From Saccoglossus kowalevskii (lineage: Eukaryota; Hemichordata; Enteropneusta; Harrimaniidae): a stretch of 64,000 nucleotides of DNA. Positions 14,151-64,000 of this stretch are shown piece after piece; the first letter of the stretch is position 1, and the number at the start of each line of letters is the position of its first letter. The notes beneath the pieces were generated by a model, which saw nothing but the letters and a program-made list of their open reading frames with translations, did not search any database and was not told the origin of the DNA. A program made the translations under genes and the position numbers. Location: the NCBI RefSeq assembly GCF_000003605.2, contig NW_003135104.1:1-64000 (forward strand). The letters are read 5' to 3'.

Positions 14151-14240
14151 TGAGTAGAACCTTTCAGGTTTTCACCACATCAGCACAATTTGAGTAGAAA
14201 CCTTCGGGGTTTCACCACATCAGCACAATTTGAGTAGAAA
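14150..14240. other. indel-rich patch
   Basis: GTAGAACCTTTCAGG, CAGGTTTTCACC, AAACCTTCGGGGTTTCACC and GTAGAAACTTTCGGGG occur within three units. Likely consensus errors. Confidence 0.6.
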
Positions 14241-38230: not shown

Positions 38231-38335
38231 AGGTTTTCACCACATCAGCACAATATGAGTAGAGCTTTCGGGGTTTCACCACATCAGCACATTTGAGTAG
38301 AAACCTTTCAGGGGTTTTCCACACCAGCACAATTG
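38230..38335. other. indel-rich patch
   Basis: CAGGTTTTCACC, GTAGAGCTTTCGGGGTTTCACC, CAGCACATTTGAG and CACAATTGAG lie within three units, exactly where Block A gives way to Block N. Confidence 0.65.
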
Positions 38336-39940: not shown

Positions 39941-40170
39941 TTCAGGGTTTCACTTCATCAGCACAATTGAGGTAGAACTTTTGGGGTTTCACACATCAGC
40001 ACATTAGAGTAGAAACTTTCAGCGTTTTCACCACATCAGCATAATTTGAGTAGGAACCTTTTGGGGTTTTCACCACATCAGCACAAATTTGAGTAGAAAC
40101 CTTTCAGGGTTTTATCCACACCAGCACAATTTGAGTAGAAACCTTTCGGGTTTTTCACCCACATCAGCAC
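39940..40170. other. indel-rich patch
   Basis: AACCTTCAGGGTTTCACTTC, CACAATTGAGGTAG, TTTTGGGGTTTCACACATC, CAGCACATTAGAG, CACAAATTTGAG, GGGTTTTATCCACACC and TTTTTCACCCACATC occur here. Despite the damage, the CATAATTTGAG and CAGCG words show that it belongs to the 2.5-kb/32.3-kb family. Confidence 0.65.
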
Positions 40171-42540
40171 TATTTGAGTAGATCATTTTCAGGTCTTTCA
40201 CCACATCAGCACAATTTGAGTAGAAACCTTTCAGGGTTTTCACCACATCAGCACAATTTGAGTAGAAACCTTTCAGGGTTTTCACCACATCAGCACAATT
40301 TGAGTAGAAACCTTTCGGGGTTTTCACCACATCAGCACAATTTGAGTAGAAACCTTTCAGGGTTTTCACCACATCAGCACAATTTGAGTAGAAACCTTTC
40401 AGGGTTTTCACCACATCAGCACAATTTGAGTAGAAACCTTTCAGGGTTTTCACCACATCAGCACAATTTGACTAGAAATTTTTCAGGGTTTTCACCACAC
40501 CAGCACAATTTGAGTAGAAACCTTTCAGGGTTTTTTCACCACATCAGCACAATTTGAGTAGAAACCTTTCAGGGTTTTCACCACATCAGCACAATTTGAG
40601 TAGAAACCTTTCAGGGTTTTCACCACATCAGCACAATTTGAGTAGAAACCTTTCAGGGTTTTCACCACATCAGCACAATTTGAGTAGGAACCTTTCAGGG
40701 TTTTCACCACATCAGCACAATTTGAGTAGAAACCTTTCAGGGTTTTCACCACATCAGCACAATTTGAGTAGGAACCTTTCAGGGTTTTCACCACATCAGC
40801 ACAATTTGAGTAGAAACCTTTCAGGGTTTTCACCACATCAGCACAATTTGAGTAGAAACCTTTCAGGGTTTTTCCACACCAGCACAATTTGAATAAAAAC
40901 CTTTCGGGGTTTTCACCACATCAGCACAATTTGAGTAGAAAATTTTCAGGTCTTTCACCACATCAGCACAATTTGAGTAGGAACCTTTCAGGGTTTTCAC
41001 CACATCAGCACAATTTGAGTAGAAACCTTTCAGGGTTTTCACCACATCAGCACAATTTGAGTAGAAACCTTTCGGGGTTTTCACCACATCAGCACAATTT
41101 GAGTAGAAACCTTTCGGGGTTTTCACCACATCAGCACAATTTGAGTAGAAACCTTTTAGGGTTTTCACCACATCAGCACAATTTGAGTAGAAACCTTTTA
41201 GGGTTTTCACCACATCAGCACAATTTGAGTAGAAACCTTTCGGGGTTTTCACCACATCAGCACAATTTGAGTAGAAACCTTTCAGGGTTTTCACCACATC
41301 AGCACAATTTGAGTAGAAAACTTTCGGGGTTTTCACCACATCAGCAGAATTTTAGTAGAAACATTTCGGGGTTTTCACCACATCAGCACAATTTGAGTAG
41401 AAACCTTTCAGGGTTTTCACCACATCAGCACAATTTGAGTGGAAAACTTTCGGGGTTTTCACCACATCAGCACAATTTGAGTAGAAAACTTTCGGGGTTT
41501 TCACCACATCAGCACAATTTGAGTAGAAAATTTTCGGGGTTTTCACCACATCAGCACAATTTGAGTAGGAACCTTTCAGGGTTTTCACCACATCAGCACA
41601 ATTTGAGTAGAAACCTTTCAGGGTTTTCACCACATCAGCACAATTTGAGTAGAAACCTTTCAGGGTTTTCACCACATCAGCACAATTTGAGTAGAAAACT
41701 TTCGGGGTTTTCACCACATCAGCAGAATTTTAGTAGAAACATTTCGGGGTTTTCACCACATCAGCACAATTTGAGTAGAAAATTTTCAGGGTTTTCACCA
41801 CATCAGCACAATTTGAGTAGAAACCTTTCAGGGATTTCACCACATCAGCACAATTTGAGTAGAAACCTTTCGGGGTTTTCACCACATCAGCACAATTTGA
41901 GTAGAAACCTTTCAGGGTTTTCACCACATCAGCACAATTTGAGTAGAAAATTTTCAGGGTTTTCACCACATCAGCACAATTTGAGTAGAAACCTTTCGGG
42001 GTTTTCACCACATCAGCACAATTTGAGTAGAAACCTTTCGGGGTTTTCACCACATCAGCACAATTTGAGTAGAAACCTTTCGGGGTTTTCACCACATCAG
42101 CACAATTTCAGTAGAAACCTTTCGTGGTTTTCACCACATCAGCACAATTTGAGTAGAAACCTTTCAGGGTTTTCACCACATCAGCACAAATTGAGTAGAA
42201 ACCTTTCAGGGTTTTCACCACGTCAGCACAATTTGAGTAGGAACCTTTCGGGGTTTTCACCACATCAGCACAATTTGAGTAGAAACCTTTCAGGGTTTTC
42301 ACCACATCAGCACAATTTGAGTAGAAATCTTTCAGGGTTTTTCCACACCAGCACAATTTGAGTAGAAACCTTTCAGGGTTTTCACCACATCAGCACAATT
42401 TGAATAGAAACCTTTCAGGGTTTTCACCACATCAGCACAATTTGAGTAGAAACCTTTCAGGGTTTTCACCACATCAGCACAATTTGAGTAGAAACCTTTC
42501 AGGGTTTTCACCACATCAGCACAATTTGAGTAGAAACCTT
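40171..42540 (+). repeat. composite block with doubled CAGCAGAATTTTAG unit
   Basis: GTAGATCATTTTCAGGTC opens it as at 2650 and 32400. A 44-bp unit lies near 40530, then GAATAAAAACC at 40892. The CAGCAGAATTTTAG plus AAACATTTC pair occurs at 41342 and 41720, 378 bp or nine units apart, marking a nine-unit sub-duplication. The end (CACAAATTGAG, CACGTCAG, AAATCTTTC, 41-bp marker, AATTTGAATAG) matches 53270-53500, offset 11086 bp. Confidence 0.87.
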
Positions 42541-42780
42541 TCGGGGGTTTTCACCACATCAGCACAATTTGAGTAGGAACCTTTCAGGGTTTTCACCACA
42601 TCAGCACAATTTGAGTAGAAACCTTTCGGGGTTTTCACCACATCAGCACAATTTGAGTAGAAACCTTTTCAGGGTTTTCTACCACATCAGCACAATTTGA
42701 GTAGAAACCTTTCGGGGTTTTCACCACATCAGCACAATTTGAGTAGAAACCTTTCTGGGTTTTTCACCACATCAGCACAA
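42540..42780. other. indel-rich patch, mild
   Basis: TTTCGGGGGTTTTC, CCTTTTCAGGG, GGTTTTCTACCACATC and CTGGGTTTTTCACC each gain one base over about 240 bp. Gains rather than losses dominate here. Confidence 0.5.
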
Positions 42781-44266
42781 TTTGAGTAGAAACCTTTCAG
42801 CGTTTTCACCACATCAGCACAATTTGAGTAGAAACCTTTCTGGGTTTTCACCACATCAGCACAATTTGAGTAGAAACCTTTCAGGGTTTTCACCACATCA
42901 GCACAATTTGAGTAGAAACCTTTCAGGGTTTTCACCACATCAGCACAATTTGAGTAGAAACCTTTCTGGGTTTTCACCACATCAGCACAATTTGAGTAGA
43001 AACCTTTCAGGGTTTTCACCACATCAGCACAATTTGAGTAGAAACCTTTCAGGGTTTTCACCACATCAGCACAATTTGAGTAGAAACCTTTCAGGGTTTT
43101 CACCACATCAGCACAATTTGAGTAGAAACCTTTCAGGGTTTTCACCATATCAGCACAATTTGAGTAGAAACCTTTCAGGGTTTTCACCACATCTGCACAA
43201 TTTGAGTAGAAACCTTTCAGGGTTTTCACCACACCAGCACAATTTGAGTAGGAACCTTTCGGGGTTTTCACCACATCAGCACAATTTGAGTAGGAACCTT
43301 TCACGGTTTTCGCCACATCAGCACAATTTGAGTAGAAACCTTTCGGGGTTTTCACCACATCAGCACAATTTGAGTAGAAACCTTTCAGGGTTTTCACCAC
43401 ATCAGCACAATTTGAGTTGAAACCTTTCAGGGTTTTCACCACATCAGCACAATTTGAGTAGAAACCTTTCGGGGTTTTCACCTCATCAGCCAAATTTGAG
43501 TAGAAACCTTTTGGGGTTTTCACAACATCAGCACAATTTGAGTAGAAACCTTCCAGGGTTTTCACCACATCAGCACAATTTGAGTAGAAACCTTTCGGGG
43601 TTTTCACCACATCAGCTTAATTTGAGTAGAAACCTTTCGAAGTTTTCACCACATCAGCACAATTTGAGTAGAAACCTTTCAGGGTTTTCACCACATCAGC
43701 TCAATTTGAGTAGAAACCTTTCTGGGTTTTCACCACATCAGCACAATTTGAGTAGAAACCTTTCTGGGTTTTCACCACATCAGCACAATTTGAGTAGAAA
43801 CCTTTCAGGGTTTTCACCACATCAGCACATTTTGAGTAGAAACCTTTCAGGGTTTTCACCACATCAGCACAATTTGAGTAGAAACCTTTCAGGGTTTTCA
43901 CCACATCAGCACAATTTGAGTAGAAACCTTTCAGGGTTTTCACCACATCAGCACAATTTGAGTAGAAACCTTTCTGGGTTTTCACCACATCAGCACAATT
44001 TGAGTAGAAACCTTTCGGGGTTTTCACCACATCAGCACAATTTGAGTAGAAACCTTTCGGGGTTTTCACCACATCAGCACAATTTGAGTAGAAACCTTTC
44101 AGGGTTTTCACCACATCAGCACAATTTGAGTAGAAACCTTTCAGGGTTTTCACCACATCAGCACAATTTGAGTAGAAACCTTTCAGGGTTTTCACCACAT
44201 CAGCACAATTTGAGTAGAATCCTTTCAGGGTTTTCACCACATCAGCACAATTTGAGTAGAAACCTT
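42781..44266 (+). repeat. copy of 62.6-63.7 kb
   Basis: TTTCAGCG (42799), CACCATATCAG (43141), CACATCTGCAC, TTTCACGGTTTTCGCC, CACCTCATCAGCC, CAACATCAG, CCTTCCAGGG and CAGCACATTTTGAG (43826) all recur 19792 bp downstream. Collinearity holds from about 42780 to 43950. Parts recur at 54130-54440 (one unit shorter) and 57121-57300. Confidence 0.93.
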
Positions 44267-46220
44267 TCAGGGTTTTTTCACCACATCAGCACAATTTGAG
44301 TAGAAACCTTTCAGGGTTTTCACCACATCAGCACAATTTGAGTAGAAACCTTTCAGGGTTTTCACCACATCAGCACAATTTGAGTAGAAATCTTTCAGGG
44401 TTTTCACCACATCAGCACAATTTGAGTAGGAACCTTTCATGGTTTTCACCACATCAGCACAATTTGAGTAGAAACCTTTCTGGGTTTTCACCACATCAGC
44501 ACAATTTGAGTAGAAACCTTTCGGGGTTTTCATCTCATCAGCCAAATTTGAGTAGAAAACTTTCGGGGTTTTCACCACATCAGCACAGTTTGAGTGGAAA
44601 CCTTTCGGGGTTTTCATCTCATCAGCCAAATTTGAGTAGAAAACTTTCGGGGTTTTCACCACATCAGCACAGTTTGAGTAGAAACCTTTCGTGGTTTTCA
44701 CCACATCAGCACAATTTGAGTAGAAACCTTTCGGGGTTTTCACCACATCAGCTCAATTTGAGTAGAAACCTTTCGGGGTTTTCACCACATCAGCTCAATT
44801 TGAGTAGAAACCTTTCAGGGTTTTCACCACATCAGCGCAATTTGAGTAGAAACCTTTTATGGTTTTCACCACATCAGCACAATTTGAGAAGGAACCTTTT
44901 GGGGTTTTCACCACATCAGCACAATTTGAGTAGAAACCTTTCGGTGTTTTCACCACACCAGCACAATTTGAGTAGAAAATTTTCAGGGTTTTCACCACAT
45001 CAGCACAATTTGAGTAGAAACCTTTCAGGGTTTTCACCACATCAGCACAAATTGAGTAGAAACCTTTCAGGGTTTTCACCACATCAGCACAATTTGAGTA
45101 GAAAACTTTCGGGGTTTTCACCACATCAGCACAATTTGAGTAGAACCCTTTCGGGGTTTTCACCACATCAGCACAATTTGAGTAGAAACCTTTCAGGGTT
45201 TTCACCACATCAGCACAATTTGAGTAGAAAATTTTCAGGGTTTTCACCACATCAGCACAATTTGAGTAGAAACCTTTCGGGGTTTTCACCACATCAGCAC
45301 AATTTGAATAGAAACCTTTCAGGGTTTTCACCACATCAGCACAATTTGAGTAGAAACCTTTCGGGGTTTTCACCACATCAGCACAATTTCAGTAGAAACC
45401 TTTCGTGGTTTTCACCACATCAGCACAATTTGAGTAGAAACCTTTCTGGGTTTTCACCACATCAGCACAATTTGAGTAGAAACCTTTCAGGGTTTTTCAC
45501 CACATCAGCACAATTTGAGTAAAAACCTTTCAGGGTTTTCACCACACCAGCACAATTTGAGTAGGAACCTTTCGGGGTTTTCACCACACCAGCACAATTT
45601 GAATAAAAACCTTTCAGGGTTTTCACCACATCAGCACAATTGGAGTAGAAACCTTTCAGGGTTTTCACCACATCAGCACAATTTGAGTAGAAACCTTTCA
45701 GGGTTTTCACCACATCAGCACAATTGGAGTAGAAACCTTTCAGGGTTTTCACCACATCAGCACAATTTGAGTAGAAACCTTTCAGGGTTTTCACCACATC
45801 AGCACAATTTGAGTAGAAACCTTTCGGGGTTTTCACCACATCAGCACAATTTGAGTAGAAACCTTTCAGGGTTTTCACCACATCAGCACAATTTGAGTAG
45901 AAACCTTTCAGGGTTTTCACCACATCAGCACAATTTGAGTAGAAACCTTTCAGGGTTTTCACCACATCAGCACAATTTGAGTAGAAACCTTTCCAGGGTT
46001 TTCACCACATCAGCACAATTTGAGTAGAAACCTTTCAGGGTTTTCACCTCATCAGCACAATTTGAGTAGAAACTTTTCTGGGTTTTCACCACATCAGCAC
46101 AATTTGAGTAGAAACCTTTCAGCGTTTTCACCACATCAGCACAATTTGAGTAGGAACCTTTCACGGTTTTCACCACATCAGCACAATTTGAGTAGAAATC
46201 TTTCAGGGTTTTCACCACAT
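44267..46220 (+). repeat. Block B, third full copy, then CACAATTGGAG pair
   Basis: 44267-44746 matches 3013-3492. One CAGCACAGTTTG unit continues into GAGTGGAAACC, a private change. The block passes into AAATTTTC, AAAACTTTC and AATTTGAATAG units. The CACAATTGGAG pair at 45635 and 45719 matches 34.8 kb. Near 46040-46150 the CACCTCATCAG, AAACTTTTCTGGG and CAGCG units repeat those of 2.4 kb. Confidence 0.9.
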
Positions 46221-49200
46221 CAGCACAATTTGAGTAAGGAACCTTTCATGGTTTTCACCACATCAGCACAATTTGAGTAGAAACCTTTCAGGGTTTTCAC
46301 CACATCAGCACAATTTGAGTAGAAACCTTTCGGGGTTTTCATCTCATCAGCCAAATTTGAGTAGAAAACTTTCGGGGTTTTCACCACATCAGCACAGTTT
46401 GAGTAGAAACCTTTCGGGGTTTTCATCTCATCAGCCAAATTTGAGTAGAAAACTTTCGGGGTTTTCACCACATCAGCACAGTTTGAGTAGAAACCTTTCG
46501 TGGTTTTCACCACATCAGCACAATTTGAGTAGAAACCTTTCGGGGTTTTCACCACATCAGCTCAATTTGAGTAGAAACCTTTCGGGGTTTTCACCACATC
46601 AGCTCAATTTGAGTAGAAACCTTTCAGGGTTTTCACCACATCAGCGCAATTTGAGTAGAAACCTTTTATGGTTTTCACCACATCAGCACAATTTGAGAAG
46701 GAACCTTTCGGGGTTTTCACCACATCAGCACAATTTGAGTAGAAACCTTTCGGGGTTTTCACCACATCAGCACAATTTGAGTAGAAAATTTTCAGGGTTT
46801 TCACCACATCAGCACAATTTGAGTAGAAACCTTTCAGGGTTTTCACCACATCAGCACAATTTGAGTAGAAACCTTTCAGGGTTTTCACCACATCAACACA
46901 ATTTGAGTGGAAACATTTCAGGGTTTTTACCACATCAGCACAATTTGAGTAGAAAATTTTCAGGGTTTTCATCACATCAGCACAATTTGAGTAGAAACCT
47001 TTCGGGGTTTTCACCACATCAGCACAATTTCAGTAGAAACCTTTAAGGGTTTTCACCACACCAGCACAATTTGAGTAGGAACCTTTCGTGGTTTTCACCA
47101 CATCAGCACAATTTGAGTAGAAACCTTTCAGGGTTTTCACCACATCAGCACAATTTGAGTAGAAACCTTTCAGGGTTTTCACCACATCAGCACAATTTGA
47201 GTAGAAACCTTTCAGGGTTTTCACCACATCAGCACAATTTGAGTAGAAACCTTTCAGGGTTTTCACCACATCAGCACAATTTGAGTAGAAACCTTTCGGG
47301 GTTTTCACCACACCAGCACAATTTGAGTAGGAACCTTTCAGCGTTTTCACCACATCAGCACAATTTGAGTAGGAACCTTTCGGGGTTTTCACCACATCAG
47401 CACAATTTGAGTAGAAACCTTTCAGGGTTTTTCCACACCAGCACAATTTGAGTAGAAACCTTTCGGGGTTTTTCCACACCAGCACAATTTGAGTAGAAAC
47501 CTTTCGGGGTTTTCACCACATCAGCACTATTTGAGTAGAACATTTTCAGGTCTTTCACCACATCAGCACAATATGAGTAGGAAGCTTTCGGGGTTTTCAC
47601 CACATCAGCACAATTTGAGTAGAAACCTTTCAGGGTTTTCACCACATCAGCACAATTTGAGTAGAAACCTTTCAGGGTTTTCACCACATCAGCACAATTT
47701 GAGTAGAAACCTTTCGGGGTTTTCATCTCATCAGCCAAATTTGAGTAGAAAACTTTCGGGGTTTTCACCACATCAGCACAGTTTGAGTAGAAATCTTTCG
47801 GGGTTTTCATCTCATCAGCCAAATTTGAGTAGAAAACTTTCGGGGTTTTCACCACATCAGCACAGTTTGAGTAGAAACCTTTCGTGGTTTTCACCACATC
47901 AGCACAATTTGAGTAGAAACCTTTCGGGGTTTTCACCACATCAGCTCAATTTGAGTAGAAACCTTTCGGGGTTTTCACCACATCAGCACAATTTCAGTAG
48001 AAACCTTTAAGGGTTTTCACCACACCAGCACAATTTGAGTAGGAACCTTTCGTGGTTTTCACCACATCAGCACAATTTGAGTAGAAACCTTTCAGGGTTT
48101 TCACCACATCAGCACAATTTGAGTAGAAACCTTTCAGGGTTTTCACCACATCAGCACAATTTGAGTAGAAACCTTTCAGGGTTTTCACCACATCAGCACA
48201 ATTTGAGTAGAAACCTTTCAGGGTTTTCACCACATCAGCACAATTTGAGTAGAAACCTTTCGGGGTTTTCACCACATCAGCACAATTTGAGTAGGAACCT
48301 TTCAGCGTTTTCACCACATCAGCACAATTTGAGTAGGAACCTTTCGGGGTTTTCACCACATCAGCACAATTTGAGTAGAAACCTTTCAGGGTTTTCCACA
48401 CCAGCACAATTTGAGTAGAAACCTTTCGGGGTTTTCACCACATCAGCACAATTTGAGTAGAAACCTTTCGAGGTTTTCACCACACCAGCACAATTTGAGT
48501 AGAAAATTTTCAGGGTTTTCACCACATCAGCACAATTTGAGTAGAAACCTTTCAGGGTTTTCACCACATCAGCACAATTTGAGTAGAAACCTTTCAGGGT
48601 TTTCACCACATCAGCACAATTTGAGTAGAAACCTTTCAGGGTTTTCACCACATCAACACAATTTGAGTGGAAACATTTCAGGGTTTTCACCACATCAGCA
48701 CAATTTGAGTAGAAACCTTTCAGGGTTTTCACCACATCAGCACAATTTGAGTAGAAACCTTTCAGGGTTTTCACCACATCAGCACAATTTGAGTAGAAAC
48801 CTTTCAGGGTTTTCACCACATCAGCACAATTTGAGTAGAAACCTTTCAGGGTTTTTTCACCACATCAGCACAATTTGAGTAGAAACCTTTCAGGGTTTTC
48901 ACCACATCAGCACAATTTGAGTAGAAACCTTTCAGGGTTTTCACCACATCAGCACAATTTGAGTAGAAATCTTTCAGGGTTTTCACCACATCAGCACAAT
49001 TTGAGTAGGAACCTTTCATGGTTTTCACCACATCAGCACAATTTGAGTAGAAACCTTTCAGGGTTTTCACCACATCAGCACAATTTGAGTAGAAACCTTT
49101 CGGGGTTTTCATCTCATCAGCCAAATTTGAGTAGAAAACTTTCGGGGTTTTCACCACATCAGCACAGTTTGAGTAGAAACCTTTCGGGGTTTTCATCTCA

Positions 49201-49660
49201 TCAGCCAAATTTGAGTAGAAAACTTTCGGGGTTTTCACCACATCAGCACAGTTTGAGTAGAAACCTTTCGTGGTTTTCACCACATCAGCACAATTTGAGT
49301 AGAAACCTTTCGGGGTTTTCACCACATCAGCTCAATTTGAGTAGAAACCTTTCGGGGTTTTCACCACATCAGCTCAATTTGAGTAGAAACCTTTCAGGGT
49401 TTTCACCACATCAGCGCAATTTGAGTAGAAACCTTTTATGGTTTTCACCACATCAGCACAATTTGAGAAGGAACCTTTCGGGGTTTTCACCACATCAGCA
49501 CAATTTGAGTAGAAACCTTTCGGGGTTTTCACCACATCAGCACAATTTGAGTAGAAAATTTTCAGGGTTTTCACCACATCAGCACAATTTGAGTAGAAAC
49601 CTTTCAGGGTTTTCACCACATCAGCACAATTTGAGTAGAAACCTTTCAGGGTTTTTTCAC
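46220..49660 (+). repeat. Block B triplet, about 1384-bp period
   Basis: CATCTCATCAGCC pairs start near 46339, 47724 and 49110, giving successive spacings close to 1385 bp. The 46.2-48.0 kb part is the 4.2-5.7 kb block in two overlapping registers (offsets 41805 and 43189), whose difference, 1384 bp, is 33 units minus 2. The second copy (47.7-48.0 kb) jumps from the first CAGCTCAATTTG unit to CAGCACAATTTCAG, an internal loss. The third opens with a 44-bp unit. Confidence 0.92.
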
Positions 49661-50430
49661 CACATCAGCACAATTTGAGTAGAAACCTTTCAGGGTTTTC
49701 ACCACATCAGCACAATTTGAGTAGAAACCTTTCAGGGTTTTCACCACATCAGCACAATTTTGAGTAGAAACCTTTCAGGGTTTTCACCACATCAGCACAA
49801 TTTGAGTAGGAACCTTTCATGGTTTTCACCACATCAGCACAATTTGAGTAGAAACCTTTTAGGGTTTTCACCACATCAGCACAATTTGAGTAGAAATCTT
49901 TCAGGGTTTTCACCACATCAGCACAATTTGAGTAGAAACCTTTCAGGGTTTTCACCACATCAGCACAATTTGAGTAGAAACCTTTCGTGGTTTTCACCAC
50001 ATCAGCACAATTTGAGTAGATACCTTTCTGGGTTTTCACCACATCAGCACAATTTGAGTAGAAACCTTTCAGCGCTTTCACCACATCAGCACAATTTGAG
50101 TAGGAACCTTTCGGGGTTTTCACCACATCAGCACAATTTGAGTATAAACCTTTCAGGGTTTTTCCACACCAGCACAATTTGAGTAGAAACCTTTCGGGGT
50201 TTTCACCACATCAGCACTATTTGAGTAGATCATTTTCAGGTCTTTCACCACATCAGCACAATTTGAGTAGGAAGCTTTCGGGGTTTTCACCACATCAGCA
50301 CAATTTGAGTAGAAACCTTTCGAGTTTTCACCACATCAGCACAATTTGAGTAGAAACTTTTCGGGGTTTTCACCACATCAGCACAATTTGAGTAGAAACC
50401 TTTCAGGGTTTTCACCACATCAGCTCAATT
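49661..50430 (+). repeat. copy of the 25.4-25.8 kb block
   Basis: From GTAGATACC and TTTCTGGG through CAGCGCTTTC (50070), GTATAAACC, a 41-bp marker, GTAGATCATTTTCAGGTC and TTTCGAGTTTTC (50321), it matches 25.4-25.8 kb at an offset of 24603 bp. GTAGATACC and GTATAAACC are private point changes. A CACAATTTTGAG unit near 49756 gains one T. Confidence 0.88.
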
Positions 50431-52430
50431 TGAGTAGAAACCTTTCAGGGTTTTCACCACATCAGCACAATTTGAGTAGAAACCTTTCGGGGTTTTCGCC
50501 ACATCAGCACAATTTGAGTAGAAACCTTTCAGGGTTTTCACCACATCAGCACAATTTGAGTAAAAACCTTTCAGGGTTTTCACCACATCAGCACAATTTG
50601 AGTAGAAACCTTTCAGGGTTTTCATCACATCAGCACAATTTGAGTAGAAACCTTTCAGGGTTTTCACCACATCAGCACAATTTGAGTAGAAACCTTTCAG
50701 GGTTTTCACCACACCAGCACAATTTGAGTAGGAACCTTTCGGGGTTTTCACCACATCAGCACAATATGAGTAGAAACCTTTCAGGGTTTTTCCACACCAG
50801 CACAATTTGAATAAAAACCTTTCGGGGTTTTCACCACATCAGCACAATTTGAGTTGAAAATTTTCAAGTCTTTCACCACATCAGCACAATTTGAGTAGGA
50901 ACCTTTCGGGTTTTTATACCACATCAGCACAATTTGAGTAGAAACCTTTCAGGGTTTTCACCACATCAGCACAATTTGAGTAGAAACCTTTCAGGGTTTT
51001 CACCACATCAGCACAATTTGAGTAGAAACCTTTCAGGGTTTTCACCACATCAGCACAATTTGAGTAGAAACCTTTCAGGGTTTTCACCACATCAGCACAA
51101 TTTGAGTAGAAACCTTTCGGAGTTTTCACCACATCAGCACAATTTGAGTAGAAACCTTTTGGGGGTTTTCACCACAGCACAATTTGAGTAGAAACCTTTC
51201 AGGGTTTTCACCACATCAGCACAATTTGAATAGAAACCTTTCAGGGTGTTTCACCACATCAGCACAATTTGAGTAGAAACCTTTCAGGGTTTTCACCACA
51301 TCAGCACAATTTGAGTAGAAACCTTTTGGGGTTTTCACCACAGCACAATTTGAGTAGAAACCTTTCAGGGTTTTCACCACATCAGCACAATTTGAATAGA
51401 AACCTTTCAGGGTTTTCACCACATCAGCACAATTTGAGTAGAAACCTTTCAGGGTTTTCACCACATCAGCACAATTTGAGTAGAAACCTTTCAGGGTTTT
51501 CACCACATCAGCACAATTTGAGTAGGAAGCTTTCGGGGTTTTCACCACATCAGCACAATTTGAGTAGAAACCTTTCAGGGTTTTCACCACATCAGCACAA
51601 TTTGAGTAGAAACCTTTCAGGGTTTTCACCACATCAGCACAATTTGAGTAAAAACCTTTCAGGGTTTTCACCACATCAGCACAATTTGAGTAGAAACCTT
51701 TCAGGGTTTTCACCACATCAGCACAATTTGAGTAGAAACCTTTCAGGGTTTTCACCACATCAGCACAATTTGAGTAGGAACCTTTCGGGGTTTTCACCAC
51801 ATCAGCACAATATGAGTAGAAACCTTTCAGGGTTTTTCCACACCAGCACAATTTGAATAAAAACCTTTCGGGGTTTTCACCACATCAGCACAATTTGAGT
51901 AAGAAATTTTCAGGTCTTTCACCACATCAGCACAATTTGAGTAGGAACCTTTCGGGTTTTTATACCACATCAGCACAATTTGAGTAGAAACCTTTCAGGG
52001 TTTTCACCACATCAGCACAATTTGAGTAGAAACCTTTCGGGGTTTTCACCACATCAGCACAATTTGAGTAGAAACCTTTCAGGGTTTTCACCACATCAGC
52101 ACAATTTGAGTAGAAACCTTTCAGGGTTTTCACCACATCAGCACAATTTGAGTAGAAACCTTTCAGGGTTTTCACCACATCAGCACAATTTGAGTAGAAA
52201 CCTTTCGGAGTTTTCACCACATCAGCACAATTTGAGTAGAAACCTTTCGGGGTTTTCACCACAGCACAATTTGAGTAGAAACCTTTCAGGGTTTTCACCA
52301 CATCAGCACAATTTGAATAGAAACCTTTCAGGGTTTTCACCACATCAGCACAATTTGAGTAGAAACCTTTCAGAGTTTTCACCACATCAGCACAATTAGA
52401 GTAGAAACCTTTCGGTGTTTTCACCTCATC
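50430..52430 (+). repeat. 1046-bp tandem duplication
   Basis: 50425-50805 recurs at 51470-51851. The rare CGGGTTTTTATACCAC at 50911 recurs at 51957, both 1046 bp later. The period is 25 units minus 4 bp, fitting one 41-bp and one 39-bp unit. Each copy has GAATAAAAACC and then an AAATTTTC unit altered differently (GTTGAAAATTTTCAAGTC, GTAAGAAATTTTCAGGTC). Units near 51150-51250 contain extra one-base changes. Confidence 0.92.
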
Positions 52431-52439
52431 AGCCAAATT

Positions 52440-52660
52440 TGAGTAGAAACCTTTTCGGGGTTTTCACAACATCAGCACAATTTGAGTAGAAACCTTTCAA
52501 GGTTTTCAACACATCAGCACAATTTGGAGTAAAAACCTTTCGGGGTTTTCACTCATCAGCACAATTGAGTAAGAACCTTTCAGGGTTTTCACCACATCAG
52601 CTCAATTGAGTAGAAACCTTTCAGGGTTTTCACCACATCAGCTCAATTGAGTAGAAACCT
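52440..52660. other. indel-rich patch
   Basis: CCTTTTCGGGG, CAAGGTTTTCAACAC, CACAATTTGGAGTAAAAACC, TTTTCACTCATC, CACAATTGAGTAAGAACC and two CAGCTCAATTGAG units lie within five to six units. Likely a poorly resolved join between the 1046-bp duplication and a homogeneous segment. Confidence 0.65.
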
Positions 52661-54030
52661 TTCGGGGTTTTCACCACATCAGCACAATTTGAGTAGAAAC
52701 CTTTCAGGGTTTTCACCACATCAGCACAATTTGAGTAGAAACCTTTCAGGGTTTTCACCACATCAGCACAATTTGAGTAGAAACCTTTCAGGGTTTTCAC
52801 CACATCAGCACAATTTGAGTAGAAACCTTTCAGGGTTTTCACCACATCAGCACAATTTGAGTAGAAACCTTTCAGGGTTTTCACCACATCAGCACAATTT
52901 GAGTAGAAACCTTTCAGGGTTTTCACCACATCAGCACAATTTGAGTAGAAACCTTTCAGGGTTTTCACCACACCAGCACAATTTGAGTAGGAACCTTTCG
53001 GGGTTTTCACCACATCAGCACAATTTGAGTAGAAACCTTTCAGGGTTTTCACCACATCAGCACAATTTGAGTAGAAACCTTTCAGGGTTTTCACCACATC
53101 AGCTCAATTTGAGTAGAAACCTTTCAGGGTTTTCACCACATCAGCACAATTTGAGTAGAAACCTTTCGGGGTTTTCACCACATCAGCACAATTTGAGTAG
53201 AAACCTTTCAGGGTTTTCACCACATCAGCACAATTTGAGTAGAAACCTTTCAGGGTTTTCACCACATCAGCACAAATTGAGTAGAAACCTTTCAGGGTTT
53301 TCACCACGTCAGCACAATTTGAGTAGGAACCTTTCGGGGTTTTCACCACATCAGCACAATTTGAGTAGAAACCTTTCAGGGTTTTCACCACATCAGCACA
53401 ATTTGAGTAGAAATCTTTCAGGGTTTTTCCACACCAGCACAATTTGAGTAGAAACCTTTCAGGGTTTTCACCACATCAGCACAATTTGAATAGAAACCTT
53501 TCAGGGTTTTCACCACATCAGCACAATTTGAGTAAAAACCTTTCAGGGTTTTCACCACATCAGCACAATTTGAGTAGGAACCTTTCAGGGTTTTCACCAC
53601 ATCAGCACAATTTGAGTAGAAACCTTTCGGGGTTTTCACCACATCAGCACAATTTGAGTAGGAACCTTTCAGGGTTTTCACCACATCAGCACAATTTGAG
53701 TAGAAACTTTTCGGGGTTTTCACCACATCAGCACAATTTGAGTAGAAACCTTTCAGGGTTTTCACCACATCAGCACAATTTGAGTAGAAACCTTTCGGGG
53801 TTTTCACCACATCAGCACAATTTGAGTAGAAACCTTTCAGGGTTTTCACCACATCAGCACAATTTGAGTAGAAACCTTTCAGGGTTTTCACCACATCAGC
53901 ACAATTTGAGTAGAAACCTTTCAGGGTTTTCACCACACCAGCACAATTTGAGTAGGAACCATTCGGGGTTTTCACCACATCAGCACAATTTGAGTAGAAA
54001 CCTTTCAGGGATTTTCCACACCAGCACAAT
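52661..54030 (+). repeat. homogeneous segment then mixed units
   Basis: From about 52690 to 52960 successive units are A24 consensus. CACAAATTGAG, CACGTCAG and AAATCTTTC precede a marker at 53447, as at 42361. GTAGGAACCATTCGGGG near 53950 and CAGGGATTTTCCACACC near 54008 are local variants of the closing units. Confidence 0.85.
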
Positions 54031-56132
54031 TTGAATAAAAACCTTTCGGGGTTTTCACCACATCAGCACAATTTGAGTAGAAACCTTTCTGGGTTTTCAC
54101 CACATCAGCACAATTTGAGTAGAAACCTTTCAGCGTTTTCACCACATCAGCACAATTTGAGTAGAAACCTTTCTGGGTTTTCACCACATCAGCACAATTT
54201 GAGTAGAAACCTTTCAGGGTTTTCACCACATCAGCACAATTTGAGTAGAAACCTTTCAGGGTTTTCACCACATCAGCACAATTTGAGTAGAAACCTTTCT
54301 GGGTTTTCACCACATCAGCACAATTTGAGTAGAAACCTTTCAGGGTTTTCACCACATCAGCACAATTTGAGTAGAAACCTTTCAGGGTTTTCACCACATC
54401 AGCACAATTTGAGTAGAAACCTTTCAGGGTTTTCACCATATCAGCACAATTTGAGTAGAAACCTTTCACGGTTTTCACCACATCAGCACAATTTGAGAAG
54501 GAACCTTTCGGGGTTTTCACCACATCAGCACAATTTGAGTAGGAACCTTTCGGGGTTTTCACCACATCAGCACAATTTGAGTAGAAACCTTTCAGGGTTT
54601 TCACCACATCAGCACAATTTGAGTAGAAACCTTTCAGGGTTTTCACCACATCAGCACAATTTGAGTAGAAACCTTTCAGGGTTTTCACCACATCAGCACA
54701 ATTTGAGTAGAAACCTTTCGAAGTTTCCACCACATCAGCACAATTTGAGTAGAAACCTTTCGGAGTTTTCACCACATCAGCACAATTTGAGTAGAAACCT
54801 TTCAGGGTTTTCACCACATCAGCACAATTTGAGTAGAAACCTTTCAGGGGTTTTCCACACCAGCACAATTTGAGTAGAAACATTTCAGGGTTTTCACCAC
54901 ATCAGCACAATTTGAGTAGAAACCTTTCGTGGTTTTCACCACATCAGCACAATTTGAGTAGAAACCTTTCGAGGTTTTCACCACATCAGCACAATTTGAG
55001 TAGAAACCTTTTGGGGTTTTCACCACATCAGCACAATTTGACTAGAAACCTTTCAGGGTTTTCACCACATCAGCACAATTTGAGTAGAAACCTTTCAGGG
55101 TTTTCACCACATCAGCACAATTTGAGTAGAAACCTTTCAGGGTTTTCACCACATCAGCACAATTTGAGTAGAAACCTTTCAGGGTTTTCACCACATCAGC
55201 ACAATTTGAGTAGAAACCTTTCAGGGTTTTCACCACATCAGCACAATTTGAGTAGAAACCTTTCGGGGTTTTCACCTCATCAGCACAATTTGAGTAGAAA
55301 CCTTTCAGGGTTTTCACCACATCAGCACAATTTGAGTAGAAACCTTTCAGGGTTTTCACCACATCAGCACAATTTGAGTAGAAACCTTTCACGGTTTTCA
55401 CCACATCAGCACAATTTGAGTAGAAACCTTTCACGGTTTTCACCACATCAGCACAATTTGAGAAGGAACCTTTCGGGGTTTTCACCACATCAGCACAATT
55501 TGAGTAGAAACCTTTCGGGGTTTTCACCACATCAGCACAATTTGAGTAGAAACCTGTCAGGGTTTTCACCACATCAGCACAATTTGAGTAGAAACCTTTC
55601 AGGGTTTTCACCACATCAGCACAATTTGAGTAGAAACCTTTCAGGGTTTTCACCACATCAGCACAATTTGAGTAGAAACCTTTCGGGGTTTTCACCACAT
55701 CAGCACAATTTGAGTAGAAACCTTTCGGGGTTTTCACCACATCAGCACAATTTGAGTAGAAACCATTCAGGGTTTTCACCACATCAGCACAATTTGAGTA
55801 GAAACCTTTCAGGGATTTCACCACATCAGCACAATTTGACTAGAAATTTTTCAGGGTTTTCACCACATCAGCACAATTTGAGTAGAAACCTTTCGTGGTT
55901 TTCACCACATCAGCACAATTTGAGTAGAAACCTTTCAGGGTTTTCACCACGTCAGCACAATTTGAGTAGGAACCTTTCAGGGTTTTCACCACATCAGCAC
56001 AATTTGAGTAGAAACCTTTCAGGGTTTTCACCACATCAGCACAATTTGAGTAGAAACCTTTCTGGGTTTTCACCACATCCGCACAATTTGAGTAGAAACC
56101 TTTCAGGGTTTTTCCACATCAGCACAATTTGA
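54031..56132 (+). repeat. SAF-type block, then Block N copy of 28 kb
   Basis: TTTCAGCG at 54131 and CACCATATCAG at 54433 parallel 42.8-43.2 kb with one unit fewer. TTTCGAAGTTTCC, TTTCGGAGTTTTC and a marker lead to Block N at 54870, which follows 28173-28700 at an offset of 26697 bp. It ends with TTTCTGGG and CACATCCGCAC before TTTTTCCACATCAG, a marker that kept T39. Confidence 0.9.
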
Positions 56133-57423
56133 GTAGAAACCTTTCGGGGTTTTCACCACATCAGCACAATTTGAGTAGGAACCTTTCGGGGTTTTCACCA
56201 CATCAGCACAATTTGAGTAGAAACCTTTCAGGGTTTTCACCACATTAGCACAATTTGAGTAGAAACCTTTCAGGGTTTTCACCACATCAGCACAATTTGA
56301 GTAGAAACCTTTCGGGGTTTTCACCACATCAGCACAATTTGAGTAGAAACCTTTCGGGGTTTTCACCACATCAGCACAATTTGAGTAGAAACCTTTCAGG
56401 GTTTTCACCACATCAGCACAATTTGAGTAGAAACCTTTCAGGGTTTTCACCACATCAGCACAATTTGAGTAGAAACCTTTCGGGGTTTTCACCACATCAG
56501 CACAATTTGAGTAGAAACCTTTCGGGGTTTTCACCACATCAGCACAATTTGAGTAGAAACCTTTTAGGGTTTTCACCACATCAGCACAATTTGAGTAGAA
56601 ACCTTTCAGGGTTTTCACCACATCAGCACAATTTGAGTAGAAACCTTTCAGGGTTTTCACCACATCAGCACAATTTGAGTAGAAACCTTTCAGGGTTTTC
56701 ACCACATCAGCACAATTTGAGTAGAAACCTTTTGGGGTTTTCACCACATCAGCACAATTTGAGTAGAACCTTTCAGGGTTTTCACCACATCAGCACAATT
56801 TGAGTAAAAACCTTTCTGGGTTTTCACCACATCAGCACAATTTGAGTAAAAACCTTTCAGCGCTTTCACCACATCAGCACAATTTGAGTAGGAACCTTTC
56901 GGGGTTTTCACCACATCAGCACAATTTGAGTAGAAACCTTTCAGGGTTTTCACCACATCAGCACAATTTGAGTAGAAACCTTTCGTGGTTTTCACCACAT
57001 CAGCACAATTTGAGTAGAAACCTTTCAGGGTTTTCACCACATCAGCACAATTTGAGTAGAAACCTTTCAGGGTTTTCACCACATCAGCACAATTTGAGTA
57101 GAAACCTTTCAGGGTTTTCACCATATCAGCACAATTTGAGTAGAAACCTTTCAGGGTTTTCACCACATCTGCACAATTTGAGTAGAAACCTTTCAGGGTT
57201 TTCACCACACCAGCACAATTTGAGTAAGAACCTTTCGGGGTTTTCACCACATCAGCACAATTTGAGTAGGAACCTTTCACGGTTTTCGCCACATCAGCAC
57301 AATTTGAGTAGAAACCTTTCGGGGTTTTCACCACATCAGCACAATTTGAGTAGAAACCTTTCAGGGTTTTCACCACATCAGCACAATTTGAGTAGAAACC
57401 TTTCAGGGTTTTCACCACATCAG
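56133..57423 (+). repeat. ordinary units up to the diverged island
   Basis: Mostly A24/G24 units. CAGCGCTTTC (56859), CACCATATCAG (57121), CACATCTGCAC (57168) and TTTCACGGTTTTCGCC (57288) repeat the order of 43.1-43.3 kb. The last unit before the island is standard, so the boundary is abrupt. Confidence 0.85.
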
Positions 57424-57628
57424 CACAATTTGAGTAGAAACCTTTCAGTCTTTTCCTCACCACAACACGAGTAGAAGAGACTCTTTGGGGTCTTCACATC
57501 ATCACAATTAGAGTAGAAGAGCATCGTGGTTTTTTTCACCTCATCACAACCAGAGTAGTAAGAAGCTTTGGTGGTTTTCACCTCAGCAGAACAATTGAAG
57601 TAGAAACCTTTGGGGGTTTTCACCTCAG
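57424..57628 (-). repeat. diverged repeat island, possible coding relic on the minus strand
   Basis: Five consecutive units are strongly diverged: two sharing 79 bp (57424-57502), then 42, 45 and 39 bp (57503, 57545, 57590). Words such as CAGTCTTTTCCTCACC, AAGAGACTCTTTGGGG, GAAGAGCATCGTGG and GTAAGAAGCTTTGG occur nowhere else. On the minus strand one frame runs through from 57875 to 57420. It gives units like AEVKTPKGFYFNC, SAEVKTTKASYYSGC, DEVKKTTMLFYSNC and DDVKTPKSLFYSCC, with the Tyr-Ser-x-Cys and Val-Lys spacing kept. Many differences fall at third codon positions (AAA/AAG, CCC/CCA/CCG, TCA/TCT/TCG). The plus frame has three stops. No start codon context, signal or unique exon is visible, so no gene is called. 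Confidence 0.8.
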
Positions 57629-59265
57629 CACAATTTGAGTAGAAACCCTTCGGGGTTTTCACCACATCAGCACAATTTGAGTAGAAACCTTTCGGGGTTT
57701 TCACCACATCAGCACAATTTGAGTAGAAACCTTTTTGGGTTTTCACCACATCAGCACAATTTGAGTAGAAACCTTTCGGGGTTTTCACCACATCAGCACA
57801 ATTTGAGTAGAAACCTTTCAGGGTTTTCACCACATCAGCGCAATTTGAGTAGAAACCTTTCAGGGTTTTCACCACATCAGCACAATTTGACTAGAAACCT
57901 TTCAGGGTTTTCACCACATCAGCACAATTTGAGTAGAAACCTTTCAGGGTTTTCACCACATCAGCACAATTTGAGTAGAAACCTTTCAGGGTTTTCACCA
58001 CATCAGCACAATTTGAGTAGAAACCTTTCAGGGTTTTCACCACATCAGCACAATTTGGGTAGAAACCTTTCGGGGTTTTCACCTCATCAGCACAATTTGA
58101 GTAGAAAACTTTCGGGGTTTTCGCCACATCAGCACAATTTGAGTAGAAACCTTTCGAAGTTTCCACCACATCAGCACAATTTGAGTAGAAACCTTTCGGA
58201 GTTTTCACCACATCAGCACAATTTGAGTAGAAACCTTTCAGGGTTTTCACCACATCAGCACAATTTGAGTAGGAACCTTTCGGGGTTTTCACCACATCAG
58301 CACAATTTGAGTAGAAACCTTTCAGGGGTTTTCCACACCAGCACAATTTGAGTAGAAACATTTCAGGGTTTTCACCACATCAGCACAATTTGAGTAGAAA
58401 CCTTTCGTGGTTTTCACCACATCAGCACAATTTGAGTAGAAACCTTTCGGGGTTTTCACCACATCAGCACAATTTGAGTAGAAACCTTTCGGGGTTTTCA
58501 CCACATCAGCACAATTTGAGTAGAAACCTTTCGGGGTTTTCACCACATCAGCACAATTTGAGTAGAAACCTTTCAGGGTTTTCACCACATCAGCACACTT
58601 TGAGTAGAAACCTTTCAGGGTTTTCACCACATCAGCACAATTTGAGTAGAAACCTTTCGGGGTTTTCACCACATCAGCACAATTTGAGTAGAAACCTTTC
58701 GGGGTTTTCATCTCATCAGCCAAATTTGAGTAGAAAACTTTCGGGGTTTTCACCACATCAGCACAGTTTGAGTAGAAACCTTTCGTGGTTTTCACCACAT
58801 CAGCACAATTTGAGTAGAAACCTTTCGGGGTTTTCACCACATCAGCTCAATTTGAGTAGAAACCTTTCGGGGTTTTCACCACATCAGCACAATTTGAGTA
58901 GAAACCTTTCGGGGTTTTCACCACATCAGCACAATTTGAGTAGAAACCTTTCGGGGTTTTCACCACATCAGCACAATTTGAGTAGAAACCTTTTAGGGTT
59001 TTCACCACATCAGCACAATTTGAGTAGAAACCTTTCAGGATTTTCACCACATCAGCACAATTTGAGTAGAAACCTTTCGGGGTTTTCACCACATCAGCAC
59101 AATTTGAGTAGAAACCTTTCAGGGTTTTCACCACATCAGCACAATTTGAGTAGAAACCTTTCAGGGTTTTCACCACATCAGCACAATTTGAGTAGAAACC
59201 TTTCAGGGTTTTCACCACATCAGCACAATTTGAGTAGAAACCTTTCAGGGTTTTCACCACATCAG
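57629..59265 (+). repeat. units after the island, Block N and a single Block B signature
   Basis: The first unit still reads AAACCCTTCGGGG, then standard units resume. CAATTTGGGTAG (58056), TTTCGAAGTTTCC and TTTCGGAGTTTTC precede Block N at 58348. One CATCTCATCAGCC unit (about 58709), CAGCACAGTTTG, TTTCGTGG and one CAGCTCAATTTG follow, matching 31.3-31.6 kb at an offset of 27466 bp. Confidence 0.88.
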
Positions 59266-59269
59266 CACA

Positions 59270-59330
59270 ATTGAGTAGAAACCTTTCGAAGTTCCACCAC
59301 ATCAGCACAATTGAGTAGAAACCTTTCGGA
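59270..59330. other. short indel-rich patch
   Basis: Two CACAATTGAG units flank TTTCGAAGTTCCACC, which has one T fewer than TTTCGAAGTTTCCACC in every other copy of this unit (8470, 24420, 28990, 29870, 54720, 58155). The missing bases are thus private to this spot. Confidence 0.65.
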
Positions 59331-61130
59331 GTTTTCACCACATCAGCACAATTTGAGTAGAAACCTTTCAGGGTTTTCACCACATCAGCACAATTTGAGT
59401 AGGAACCTTTCGGGGTTTTCACCACATCAGCACAATTTGAGTAGAAACCTTTCAGGGGTTTTCCACACCAGCACAATTTGAGTAGAAACATTTCAGGGTT
59501 TTCACCACATCAGCACAATTTGAGTAGAAACCTTTCGTGGTTTTCACCACATCAGCACAATTTGAGTAGAAACCTTTCGGGGTTTTCACCACATCAGCAC
59601 AATTTGAGTAGAAACCTTTCGGGATTTTCACCACATCAGCACAATTTGAGTAGAAACCTTTTAGGGTTTTCACCACATCAGCACAATTTGAGTAGAAACC
59701 TTTCGGGGTTTTCACCACATCAGCACAATTTGAGTAGAAACCTTTCGGGGTTTTCACCACATCAGCACAATTTGAGTAGAAACCCTTCAGGGTTTTCACC
59801 ACATCAGCACAATTTGAGTAGAAACCTTTCAGGGTTTTCACCACACCAGCACAATTTGAGTAGGAACCTTTCGGGGTTTTCACCACGTCAGCACAATTTG
59901 AGTAGGAACCTTTCGGGGTTTTCACCACATCAGCACAATTTGAGTAGAAACCTTTCTGGGTTTTCACCACATCCGCACAATTTGAGTAGAAACCTTTCAG
60001 GGTTTTTCCACACCAGCACAATTTGAGTAGAAACCTTTCGGGGTTTTCACCACACCAGCACAATTTGAGTAGGAACCTTTCGGGGTTTTCACCACATTAG
60101 CACAATTTGAGTAGAAACCTTTCAGGGTTTTCACCACATCAGCACAATTTGAGTAGAAACCTTTCAGGGTTTTCACCACATCAGCACAATTTGAGTAGAA
60201 ACCTTTCAGGGTTTTCACCACATCAGCACAATTTGAGTAGAAACCTTTCAGGGTTTTCACCACATCAGCACAATTTGAGTAGGAACCTTTCAGGGTTTTC
60301 ACCACATCAGCACAATTTGAGTAGAAACCTTTCAGGGTTTTCACCACATCAGCACAATTTGAGTAGAAACCTTTCAGGGTTTTTCCACACCAGCACAATT
60401 TGAATAAAAACCTTTCGGGGTTTTCACCACATCAGCACAATTTGAGTAGAAAATTTTCAGGTCTTTCACCACATCAGCACAATTTGAGTAGAAACCTTTC
60501 AGGGTTTTCACCACATCAGCACAATTTGAGTAGAAACCTTTCGGGGTTTTCACCACATCAGCACAATTTGAGTAGAAACCTTTCAGGGTTTTCACCACAT
60601 CAGCACAATTTGAGTAGGAACCTTTCAGGGTTTTCACCACATCAGCACAATTTGAGTAGAAACCTTTCAGGGTTTTCACCACATCAGCACAATTTGAGTA
60701 GAAACCTTTCGGGGTTTTCACCACATCAGCACAATTTGAGTAGAAACCTTTCAGGGTTTTCACCACATCAGCACAATTTGAGTAGAAACCTTTCGGGGTT
60801 TTCACCACATCAGCAGAATTTGAGTAGAAACCTTTCGGGGTTTTCACCACATCAGCACAATTTGAGTAGAAAACTTTCGGGGTTTTCACCACATCAGCAC
60901 AATTTGAGTAGAAACCTTTCAGGGTTTTCACCACATCAGCACAATTTGAGTAGAAACCTTTCATGGTTTTCACCACATCAGCACAAATTGAGTAGAAACC
61001 TTTCGGGGTTTTCACCACGTCAGCACAATTTGAGTAGGAACCTTTCGGGGTTTTCACCACATCAGCACAATTTGAGTAGAAACCTTTCTGGGTTTTCACC
61101 ACATCCGCACAATTTGAGTAGAAACCTTTC
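59331..61130 (+). repeat. Block N, Block C and Block Q in series
   Basis: 59478-59830 matches 38333-38685. 59997-60403 matches 15752-16158 at an offset of 44245 bp. 60400-61130 then repeats the Block Q series (CAGCAGAATTTG, AAAACTTTC, TTTCATGG, CACAAATTGAG, CACGTCAG, TTTCTGGG, CACATCCGCAC) of 9.0 and 14.9 kb. The order of joined blocks differs from that at 15-16 kb, where Q precedes C. Confidence 0.9.
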
Positions 61131-61310
61131 AGGTTTTTCCACACCAGCACAATTTGAGTAGAAACCTTTCGGGTTTCACCACATCAGCACAATTTGAGTA
61201 GAACCTTCGCGGTTTCACCACATCAGCACATTTGAGTAGAAACCTTTCGGGGTTTCACAACATCAACACAATTTGAGTACAAACCTTTCGGGGTTTCACC
61301 ACATCAGCAC
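61130..61310. other. indel-rich patch
   Basis: CAGGTTTTTCCACACC, CGGGTTTCACC, GTAGAACCTTCGCGGTTTCACC, CAGCACATTTGAG, GGGGTTTCACAACATCAACAC and GAGTACAAACC cluster here. It terminates a Block Q copy. Confidence 0.65.
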
Positions 61311-62580
61311 AATTTGAGTAGAAACCTTTTAGGGTTTTCACCACATCAGCACAATTTGAGTAGAAACCTTTCAGGGTTTTCACCACATCAGCACAATTTG
61401 AGTAGAAACCTTTCAGGGTTTTCACCACATCAGCACAATTTGAGTAGAAACCTTTCTGGGTTTTCACCACATCAGCACAATTTGAGTAGAAACCTTTCGG
61501 GGTTTTCACCACATCAGCACAATTTGAGTAGAAACCTTTCAGGGTTTTCACCACATCAGCGCAATTTGAGTAGAAACCTTTCAGGGTTTTCACCACATCA
61601 GCACAATTTGAGTTGAAACCTTTCAGGGTTTTCACCACATCAGCACAATTTGAGTAGAAACCTTTCGTGGTTTTCACCACATCAGCACAATTTGAGTAGA
61701 AACCTTTCGGGGTTTTCACCACATCAGCACAATTTGAGTAGAAACCTTTCGGGGTTTTCACCACATCAGCACAATTTGAGTAGAAACCTTTTAGGGTTTT
61801 CACCACATCAGCACAATTTGAGTAGAAACCTTTCGGCGTTTTCACCACATCAGCACAATTTGAGTAGGAACCTTTCGGGGTTTTCACCACATCAGCACAA
61901 TTTGAGTAGAAACCTTTCAGGGTTTTCACCACATCAGCACAATTTGAGTAGAAACCTTTCTGGGTTTTCACCACATCAGCACACTTTGAGTAGAAACCTT
62001 TCGTGGTTTTCACCACATCAGCACAATTTGAGTAGAAACCTTTCGCGGTTTTCACCACATCAGCACAATTTGAGTAGAAACCTTTCGGGGTTTTCACCAC
62101 ATCAGCACAATTTGAGTAGAAACCTTTTAGGGTTTTCACCACATCAGCACAATTTGAGAAGGAACCTTTCGGGGTTTTCACCACATCAGCACAATTTGAG
62201 TAGAAACCTTTCGGGGTTTTCACCACATCAGCACAATTTGAGTAGAAACCTTTCGGGGTTTTCACCACATCAGCACAATTTGAGTAGAAACCTTTCTGGG
62301 TTTTCACCACATCAGCACAATTTGAGTAGAAACCTTTCGGGGTTTTCACCACATCAGCACAATTTGAGTAGAAACCTTTCAGGGTTTTCACCACATCAGC
62401 GCAATTTGAGTAGAAACCTTTCAGGGTTTTCACCACATCAGCACAATTTGAGTTGAAACCTTTCAGGGTTTTCACCACATCAGCACAATTTGAGTAGAAA
62501 CCTTTCGGGGTTTTCACCACATCAGCACAATTTGAGTAGAAACCTTTCGGGGTTTTCACCACATCAGCACAATTTGAGTA
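61311..62580 (+). repeat. units within the longest minus-strand open frame
   Basis: Exact 42-bp spacing is kept from here to 63.4 kb, giving 715 open codons on the minus strand (61255-63402) with a GTG, not ATG, start. CACACTTTG, TTTCGTGG and TTTCGCGG (61980-62050) match 16696-16780. GAGTTGAAACC and CAGCGCAATTTG units occur twice about 840 bp apart (61557 and 62399), an internal duplication of 20 units. Confidence 0.85.
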
Positions 62581-64000
62581 GAAACCTTTCAGCGTTTTCA
62601 CCACATCAGCACAATTTGAGTAGAAACCTTTCTGGGTTTTCACCACATCAGCACAATTTGAGTAGAAACCTTTCAGGGTTTTCACCACATCAGCACAATT
62701 TGAGTAGAAACCTTTCAGGGTTTTCACCACATCAGCACAATTTGAGTAGAAACCTTTCTGGGTTTTCACCACATCAGCACAATTTGAGTAGAAACCTTTC
62801 AGGGTTTTCACCACATCAGCACAATTTGAGTAGAAACCTTTCAGGGTTTTCACCACATCAGCACAATTTGAGTAGAAACCTTTCAGGGTTTTCACCACAT
62901 CAGCACAATTTGAGTAGAAACCTTTCAGGGTTTTCACCATATCAGCACAATTTGAGTAGAAACCTTTCAGGGTTTTCACCACATCTGCACAATTTGAGTA
63001 GAAACCTTTCAGGGTTTTCACCACACCAGCACAATTTGAGTAGGAACCTTTCGGGGTTTTCACCACATCAGCACAATTTGAGTAGGAACCTTTCACGGTT
63101 TTCGCCACATCAGCACAATTTGAGTAGAAACCTTTCGGGGTTTTCACCACATCAGCACAATTTGAGTAGAAACCTTTCAGGGTTTTCACCACATCAGCAC
63201 AATTTGAGTAGAAACCTTTCAGGGTTTTCACCACATCAGCACAATTTGAGTAGAAACCTTTCGGGGTTTTCACCTCATCAGCCAAATTTGAGTAGAAACC
63301 TTTTGGGGTTTTCACAACATCAGCACAATTTGAGTAGAAACCTTCCAGGGTTTTCACCACATCAGCACAATTTGAGTAGAAACCTTTCGGGGTTTTCACC
63401 ACATCAGCTCAATTTGAGTAGAAACCTTTCAGGGTTTTCACCACATCAGCACAATTTGAGTAGAAACCTTTCAGGGTTTTCACCACATCAGCACAATTTG
63501 AGTAGAAACCTTTCTGGGTTTTCACCACATCAGCACAATTTGAGTAGAAACCTTTCTGGGTTTTCACCACATCAGCACAATTTGAGTAGAAACCTTTCAG
63601 GGTTTTCACCACATCAGCACATTTTGAGTAGAAACCTTTCAGGGTTTTCACCACATCAGCACAATTTGAGTAGAAACCTTTCAGGGTTTTCACCACATCA
63701 GCACAATTTGAGTAGAAACCTTTCAGGGTTTTCACCACATCAGCACAATTTGAGTAGAAACCTTTCATGGTTTTCACCACATCAGCACAAATTGAGTAGA
63801 AACCTTTCAGGGTTTTCACCACGTCAGCAGAATTTGAGTAGGAACCTTTCGGGGTTTTCACCACATCAGCACAATTTGAGTAGAAACCTTTCAGGGTTTT
63901 CACCACAGCACAATTTGAGTAGAAACCTTTCAGGGTTTTCACCACATCAGCACAATTTGAGTAGAAACCTTTCAGGGTTTTTCCACACTAGCACAATTTG
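62581..64000 (+). repeat. chimeric end block (42.8-kb type then 14.7-kb type)
   Basis: From TTTCAGCG at 62591 to CAGCACATTTTGAG at 63618 the sequence follows 42799-43826 at an offset of 19792 bp. From TTTCATGG at about 63766 to the last base it follows 14707-14941 at an offset of 49059 bp, including CACGTCAGCAGAATTTG, a 39-bp unit and CCACACTAGCAC. The switch lies in standard units between about 63650 and 63760. The array continues past the window. Confidence 0.92.

Follow-up and report, generated by a model that had tools for sequence, protein, structure and literature searches.

Diverged, probably old monomers form a short island inside a 42-bp satellite array of Saccoglossus kowalevskii

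The window analysed here, a stretch of 64,000 nucleotides, represents bases 1-64,000 of contig C2697 (71,869 bases), and over its whole length (1..64000) it consists of a single tandem array with a 42-bp unit, for which TRF reported 1527.6 copies with a 94% match. On the minus strand the unit reads FYSNCADVVKTLKG in the sole open frame of that strand. Wraparound alignment divided the window into 1,528 units, 444 of which are identical to the consensus, and the mean number of differences from it is about 1.5 per unit. A long head-to-tail array of near-identical units of this kind is satellite DNA. In the assembly that was searched (572,110,611 bases in 4,830 contigs), the same satellite makes up the remainder of C2697 and also a second contig, C4287 (16,997 bases), except for the last 2 bases of the latter, and the total found was 88.9 kb. 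When partial end units are counted, there are 1,716 units in C2697 and 408 in C4287.

Runs of 19-20 units are exactly repeated at places far apart in the window (2882-3681 and 48715-49514; 3934-4771 and 47123-47960; 23197-24034 and 35299-36136). These distant repeated runs, of up to 20 units, show that segments have been copied within the array as block duplications. The duplications lie at varying distances and no fixed higher-order period was seen in the window; the identity of informative units was 0.028 at lag 4 and was highest at lags 1 and 109 (0.053 each). One unit type with 7 differences from the consensus, SYSYCADVVKDLKM, recurs identically at 4352-4393 and six further sites in the window, as well as at three in C4287. 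Neighbouring units that each carry at least two one-base deletions were observed at 7039-7117, 14160-14239, 31162-31311, 38265-38342, 39938-40014, and 61124-61241. Most of these clustered deletions are in short homopolymers, and they resemble sequencing errors left uncorrected; deletions are also seen in the terminal unit at each end of C2697. The telomere-type repeat (TTAGG)5 was present at one place only in the assembly.

The satellite array is non-coding. The single-base variants of which three or more copies exist fall into 62 types, comprising 19 synonymous changes, 38 that change a residue and 5 that create stops, which is about as expected without selection (14.9, 43.9, and 3.2, respectively). 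An in-frame stop is present in 164 of the 1,520 array units, and the length of 140 of these units is not divisible by three. The longest open stretches in the window extend over 717 codons on the minus strand and 572 on the plus strand; because 42 is divisible by 3, a frame without stops in one unit continues into the next, and a long open stretch therefore says little by itself.

The initial annotation had drawn attention to a heavily diverged island amid this near-uniform array, and its divergence is evident from our alignment: the units cut by it at 57440-57605 differ from the consensus at 13, 9, 15, and 11 positions, whereas the maximum for other complete units is 8 in C2697 and 7 in C4287. 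Based upon wraparound alignment and frame analysis, the island (57439..57644, minus strand) comprises five diverged and apparently old monomers, with one minus frame open throughout. In minus-strand order these are U0 (57606..57644; 39 bp; FYSNCAEVKTPKG), which is closest to the array with 5 differences, U1 (57561..57605; 45 bp; FYFNCSAEVKTTKAS), U2 (57519..57560; 42 bp; YYSGCDEVKKTTML), U3 (57477..57518; 42 bp; FYSNCDDVKTPKSL), and U4 (57439..57476; 38 bp; FYSCCGEEKTER), where the frame is lost as the array resumes. The variable unit lengths described earlier were thus seen again, but the units are five in number (38, 42, 42, 45, and 39 bp) rather than four of 38/39, 42, 45, and 39 bp. The claim that the minus frame stays open through the island holds, as it forms part of a stop-to-stop open frame of 156 codons (57420..57890, minus strand) that also covers nearly six array units to the right, and the frame break reported at the left end falls where the array resumes, near 57447-57449. 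The plus strand has 1, 6, and 2 stops across its three frames in a slightly different span, and the earlier figure of three was not exactly reproduced. A Cys residue, said to be constant, is indeed found in all five units, while the Tyr-Ser-x-Cys word and the Val-Lys spacing are each kept in four of the five, with Tyr-Phe-Asn-Cys replacing the former in one unit and Glu-Glu-Lys the latter in the leftmost. A single-sequence AlphaFold prediction for the 156-residue frame was uninformative (pLDDT 29.5).

The left side of the island is abrupt (57446..57449). Up to this junction its flank matches two other parts of the window unit by unit, viz. block a (62836..63886) and block b (43044..44094); to the right of it the match stops, and both blocks run on without the island. 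Each of the ten units left of the junction shows 0 or 1 base difference from its counterparts at 43,044-43,463 and 62,836-63,255, and across the junction point only 0-3 bases per unit distinguish the two blocks from one another, while the island departs. The right side is graded, the aligned differences from the consensus being, from left to right, 13, 8, 13, 9, 5, and 2 and then at the array level, a gradation carried by two units (those with 5 and 2 differences). In the two satellite contigs the island is unique. A 122-bp piece of it matched only itself in the 572-Mb assembly, in a search that skips very common words and in which one candidate was found and scored; an island that had mutated faster, or that had arisen through error, would be unique as well.

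A sharp left side could also be produced if the island had been copied into the array from a related but different satellite family or element. However, the right side is graded and the same search, with its skipping of very common words, found no second copy of the 122-bp piece in the assembly, and we regard such an origin as unlikely. An assembly or sequencing artefact, whether a misjoin or an uncorrected stretch of reads, would be in keeping with the one sharp junction, with the error-like clusters of one-base deletions that the array carries in short homopolymers, and with the deletions in the units at the two ends of the contig. In contrast to these clusters, the island, except for its 38-bp junction unit, differs mainly by substitutions and by length changes of 3 bases, and its frame stays open; an artefact of this kind appears very improbable.

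The explanation that we favor, and consider probable, is that a few successive old monomers, forming the island, were spared from homogenisation and most likely represent a former array edge, to which younger array was later joined. Unequal exchange, block duplication, and conversion would homogenise an array of this kind, with a few old monomers escaping; the island may then mark a former edge, with its divergence fading into the right-hand array, and a subsequent exchange that joined younger array to this old edge would account for the sharp left junction. As the island gives way on the left, over a few bases, to sequence that is found elsewhere in the array without it, a later exchange probably did join younger array at this point. 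The greater age of the island (as opposed to more rapid evolution), its former position at an edge, and this order of events are inferences on our part. The general unequal-exchange model envisages satellite DNA with diverged monomers at the edges of arrays. The present array shares with such satellites a homogeneous core, block duplications, and a few old, diverged monomers, but its diverged monomers are internal to the assembled array, with no edge in view; a true edge is absent from the assembly, both contigs being satellite but for the 2 terminal bases of C4287. Since the origins of satellites are mostly erased by homogenisation, preserved old monomers of this kind would make it possible to deduce the ancestral unit.

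The codon states of the island also bear upon its age. Five of them, viz. TCG, AAG at the first Lys, TTC at Ser, and both GGT and TGT at Asn, are without any instance in the 1,520 array units, which fits an older or separate divergence. Other island states do occur among these units (ACT in 27, CCA in 23, TCT in 3, CCC in 3, the second AAG in 2, ACG in 46, AGT in 9, and GCT in 14), which counts against the relic explanation. In its favor, the array retains a minority of island-like states: where the consensus has the codon GTG, GAG is present in four of the five island units and in 32 of the 1,520 array units. Pro is found in 26 of these 32 GAG units compared with 455 of the 1,488 others, and in two of the island units; the 32 include block copies, so that the 26 are not independent events. 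The earlier suggestion that the island represents the ancestor of the satellite is supported, by inference, as far as states older than those of the array are concerned, while the case for a coding past is moderate and comes from a small sample. Opposite the island's left junction, at 43464 and 63256, both matching blocks carry the rare GAG-type unit FYSNLADEVKTPKG; given 32 such units in 1,520, this could be due to chance.

A coding past is compatible with the relic explanation and adds to it. It holds that the satellite expanded from a gene whose protein had tandem repeats of 13-15 residues ([FY]-Y-S-N-C-(A)-D-E-V-K-T-P-K-G/SL), with the island keeping the coding constraint that the array has lost, and we entertain it as a tentative possibility. 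The fuller version, in which an internal gene repeat of 13-15 residues gave rise to the whole satellite (at least 89 kb) and part of the coding ancestor survives as the island, with constraint at the codon level, is in our estimation somewhat doubtful. The length changes in multiples of three noted previously are seen in the units preceding the junction unit (39, 45, 42, and 42 bp), but not in the 38-bp junction unit itself. For comparison, the frame is kept by only 1 of 30 indel types in the array and 13 of 213 indel copies (1 of 17 types when at least three copies are required), and in a neutral simulation with two indels drawn from the array spectrum the open frame was kept in about 5%; however, this contrast would be exaggerated if, as is possible, many one-base deletions of the array stem from sequencing errors. 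In a codon alignment made by hand, the pooled pN/pS was 0.35, compared with null means of 0.77-1.15 (P 0.0023-0.025 in six settings). The other five frames gave values of 0.60-1.18, based upon fewer codons, as those straddling gaps or containing stops were left out. Among the ten pairs of units, dN was smaller than dS in 7 and larger in 1, and the comparison was undefined in 2.

Against these observations, the sample consists of five units with 28 substitutions, and the codon alignment was laid by hand with the frame in mind, which may favor coding. Over 13 alignment variants and leave-one-out analyses, pN/pS ranged from 0.29 to 0.60 and P from 0.0075 to 0.18, with P below 0.05 in 9 of 13 and above it in 4 of 13. 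The check by codon position that had been proposed for the island was carried out and gave no significant result: the changes were distributed 5/8/11 over the three positions in the hand alignment and 6/14/12 in an unguided MAFFT alignment, in which second positions change most, and none of five permutation tests was significant (P 0.13, 0.21, and 0.17 by hand; 0.37 and 0.28 unguided). The open frame is kept through the diverged units, but chance achieves this easily when no frame-breaking indel occurs, the probability of a stop-free island being 0.27-0.52 in simulations that matched the observed substitution count and were free of indels. A test upon runs of five units was dropped for the island, as the automatic unit cuts fall inside codons and 8 of 10 island runs were scored as broken.

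The island may instead never have been coding, i.e., it may be a relic or a fast-evolving patch whose open frame and in-phase lengths are due to luck. This is a strong possibility that falls a little short of being probable. It agrees with the null outcome of the permutation tests, with the neutral behavior of the array in the island's own frame, and with the ease with which an open stretch is obtained when 42 is a multiple of 3, whereas the contrast in pN/pS between frames and the in-frame lengths of the island argue against it.

Searches for a related gene were dominated by the satellite itself. A search with a 261-bp island region, in which very common words are skipped, gave at least 77 matches in the assembly, and every one of them lies in C2697 or C4287. 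A 54-residue island peptide gave 193 matches with the best 150 of 848 candidates scored; all of the matches listed are in the same two contigs and none except the island itself exceeds 48.3 bits. Among these best 150 of 848 candidates, a gene with lower similarity to the peptide than the satellite has could be missed, while one closer to the island should outrank it. The peptide search for a coding relative that the initial annotation had called for thus revealed no credible one in this one assembly, where satellite matches crowd the best 150 of 848 candidates scored, and this counts against a coding origin. A gene with the same repeat in a relative, if found, would show that satellite DNA had originated from a coding sequence.

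Against Pfam, a 97-residue island peptide had no match above the cut-off (DUF2650 reached 8 vs. 22.9 bits), and NCBIfam gave none. The RHH_8 family was matched by a 70-residue satellite peptide (30.4 vs. 25.4 bits, E 4.5e-7), but no single stretch passes and we take this to be a sum of weak repeat matches. In PDB, the 97-residue island query matched lysostaphin (4.4e-8, four stretches within a limit of 10) and superoxide dismutase (1.2). With a 74-residue island query and a limit of 1, the sole match was a designed toroid (3.9e-5, with none of its stretches passing individually), and lysostaphin no longer appeared. The lysostaphin and toroid matches extend over periodic stretches and were set aside as chance matches of repeat on repeat. 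A tblastn match to an Acinetobacter plasmid (0.03, 28% identity) was rejected. Exact DNA patterns had 0 matches in viral and prokaryote contigs, peptide patterns had 1 and 12 stretches there, of which none was confirmed, and blastn against phages and plasmids gave no match. Rfam and tRNA searches both returned 0. In the literature searched, no occurrence was found of the 42-bp unit (as four 14-15-base words) or of six peptide words, and no printed repeat letters were found in PMC4301066.

Satellites with units of similar length are known from vertebrates. In the part of the source available, Cen-42 is a centromeric 42-bp repeat of croaker fishes that forms long arrays (PMC12631908). It resembles the present array in unit length and in the extent of the arrays, a likeness drawn from its description, but the 168-bp four-unit higher-order repeat reported there for Cen-42 is not seen here, where the identity at lag 4 is not raised (PMC12631908). 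The CNM repeat family of bird microchromosomes has a unit of 41-42 bp and, in the portions of these papers available, is characterized by A3-5 and T3-5 runs spaced 6-7 bp apart (PMC6435179, PMC9974502, PMC3091757). The unit length is again shared, a likeness likewise drawn from the description. The TTTTCN5GAAAA dyad, given in the part available for the CNM-related chicken sate-21, is absent from our unit. One CNM-like T3-N6-A3 word, as defined from those portions, is present in the consensus, and such a word also occurs in 7% of mononucleotide and 15% of dinucleotide-preserving shuffles.
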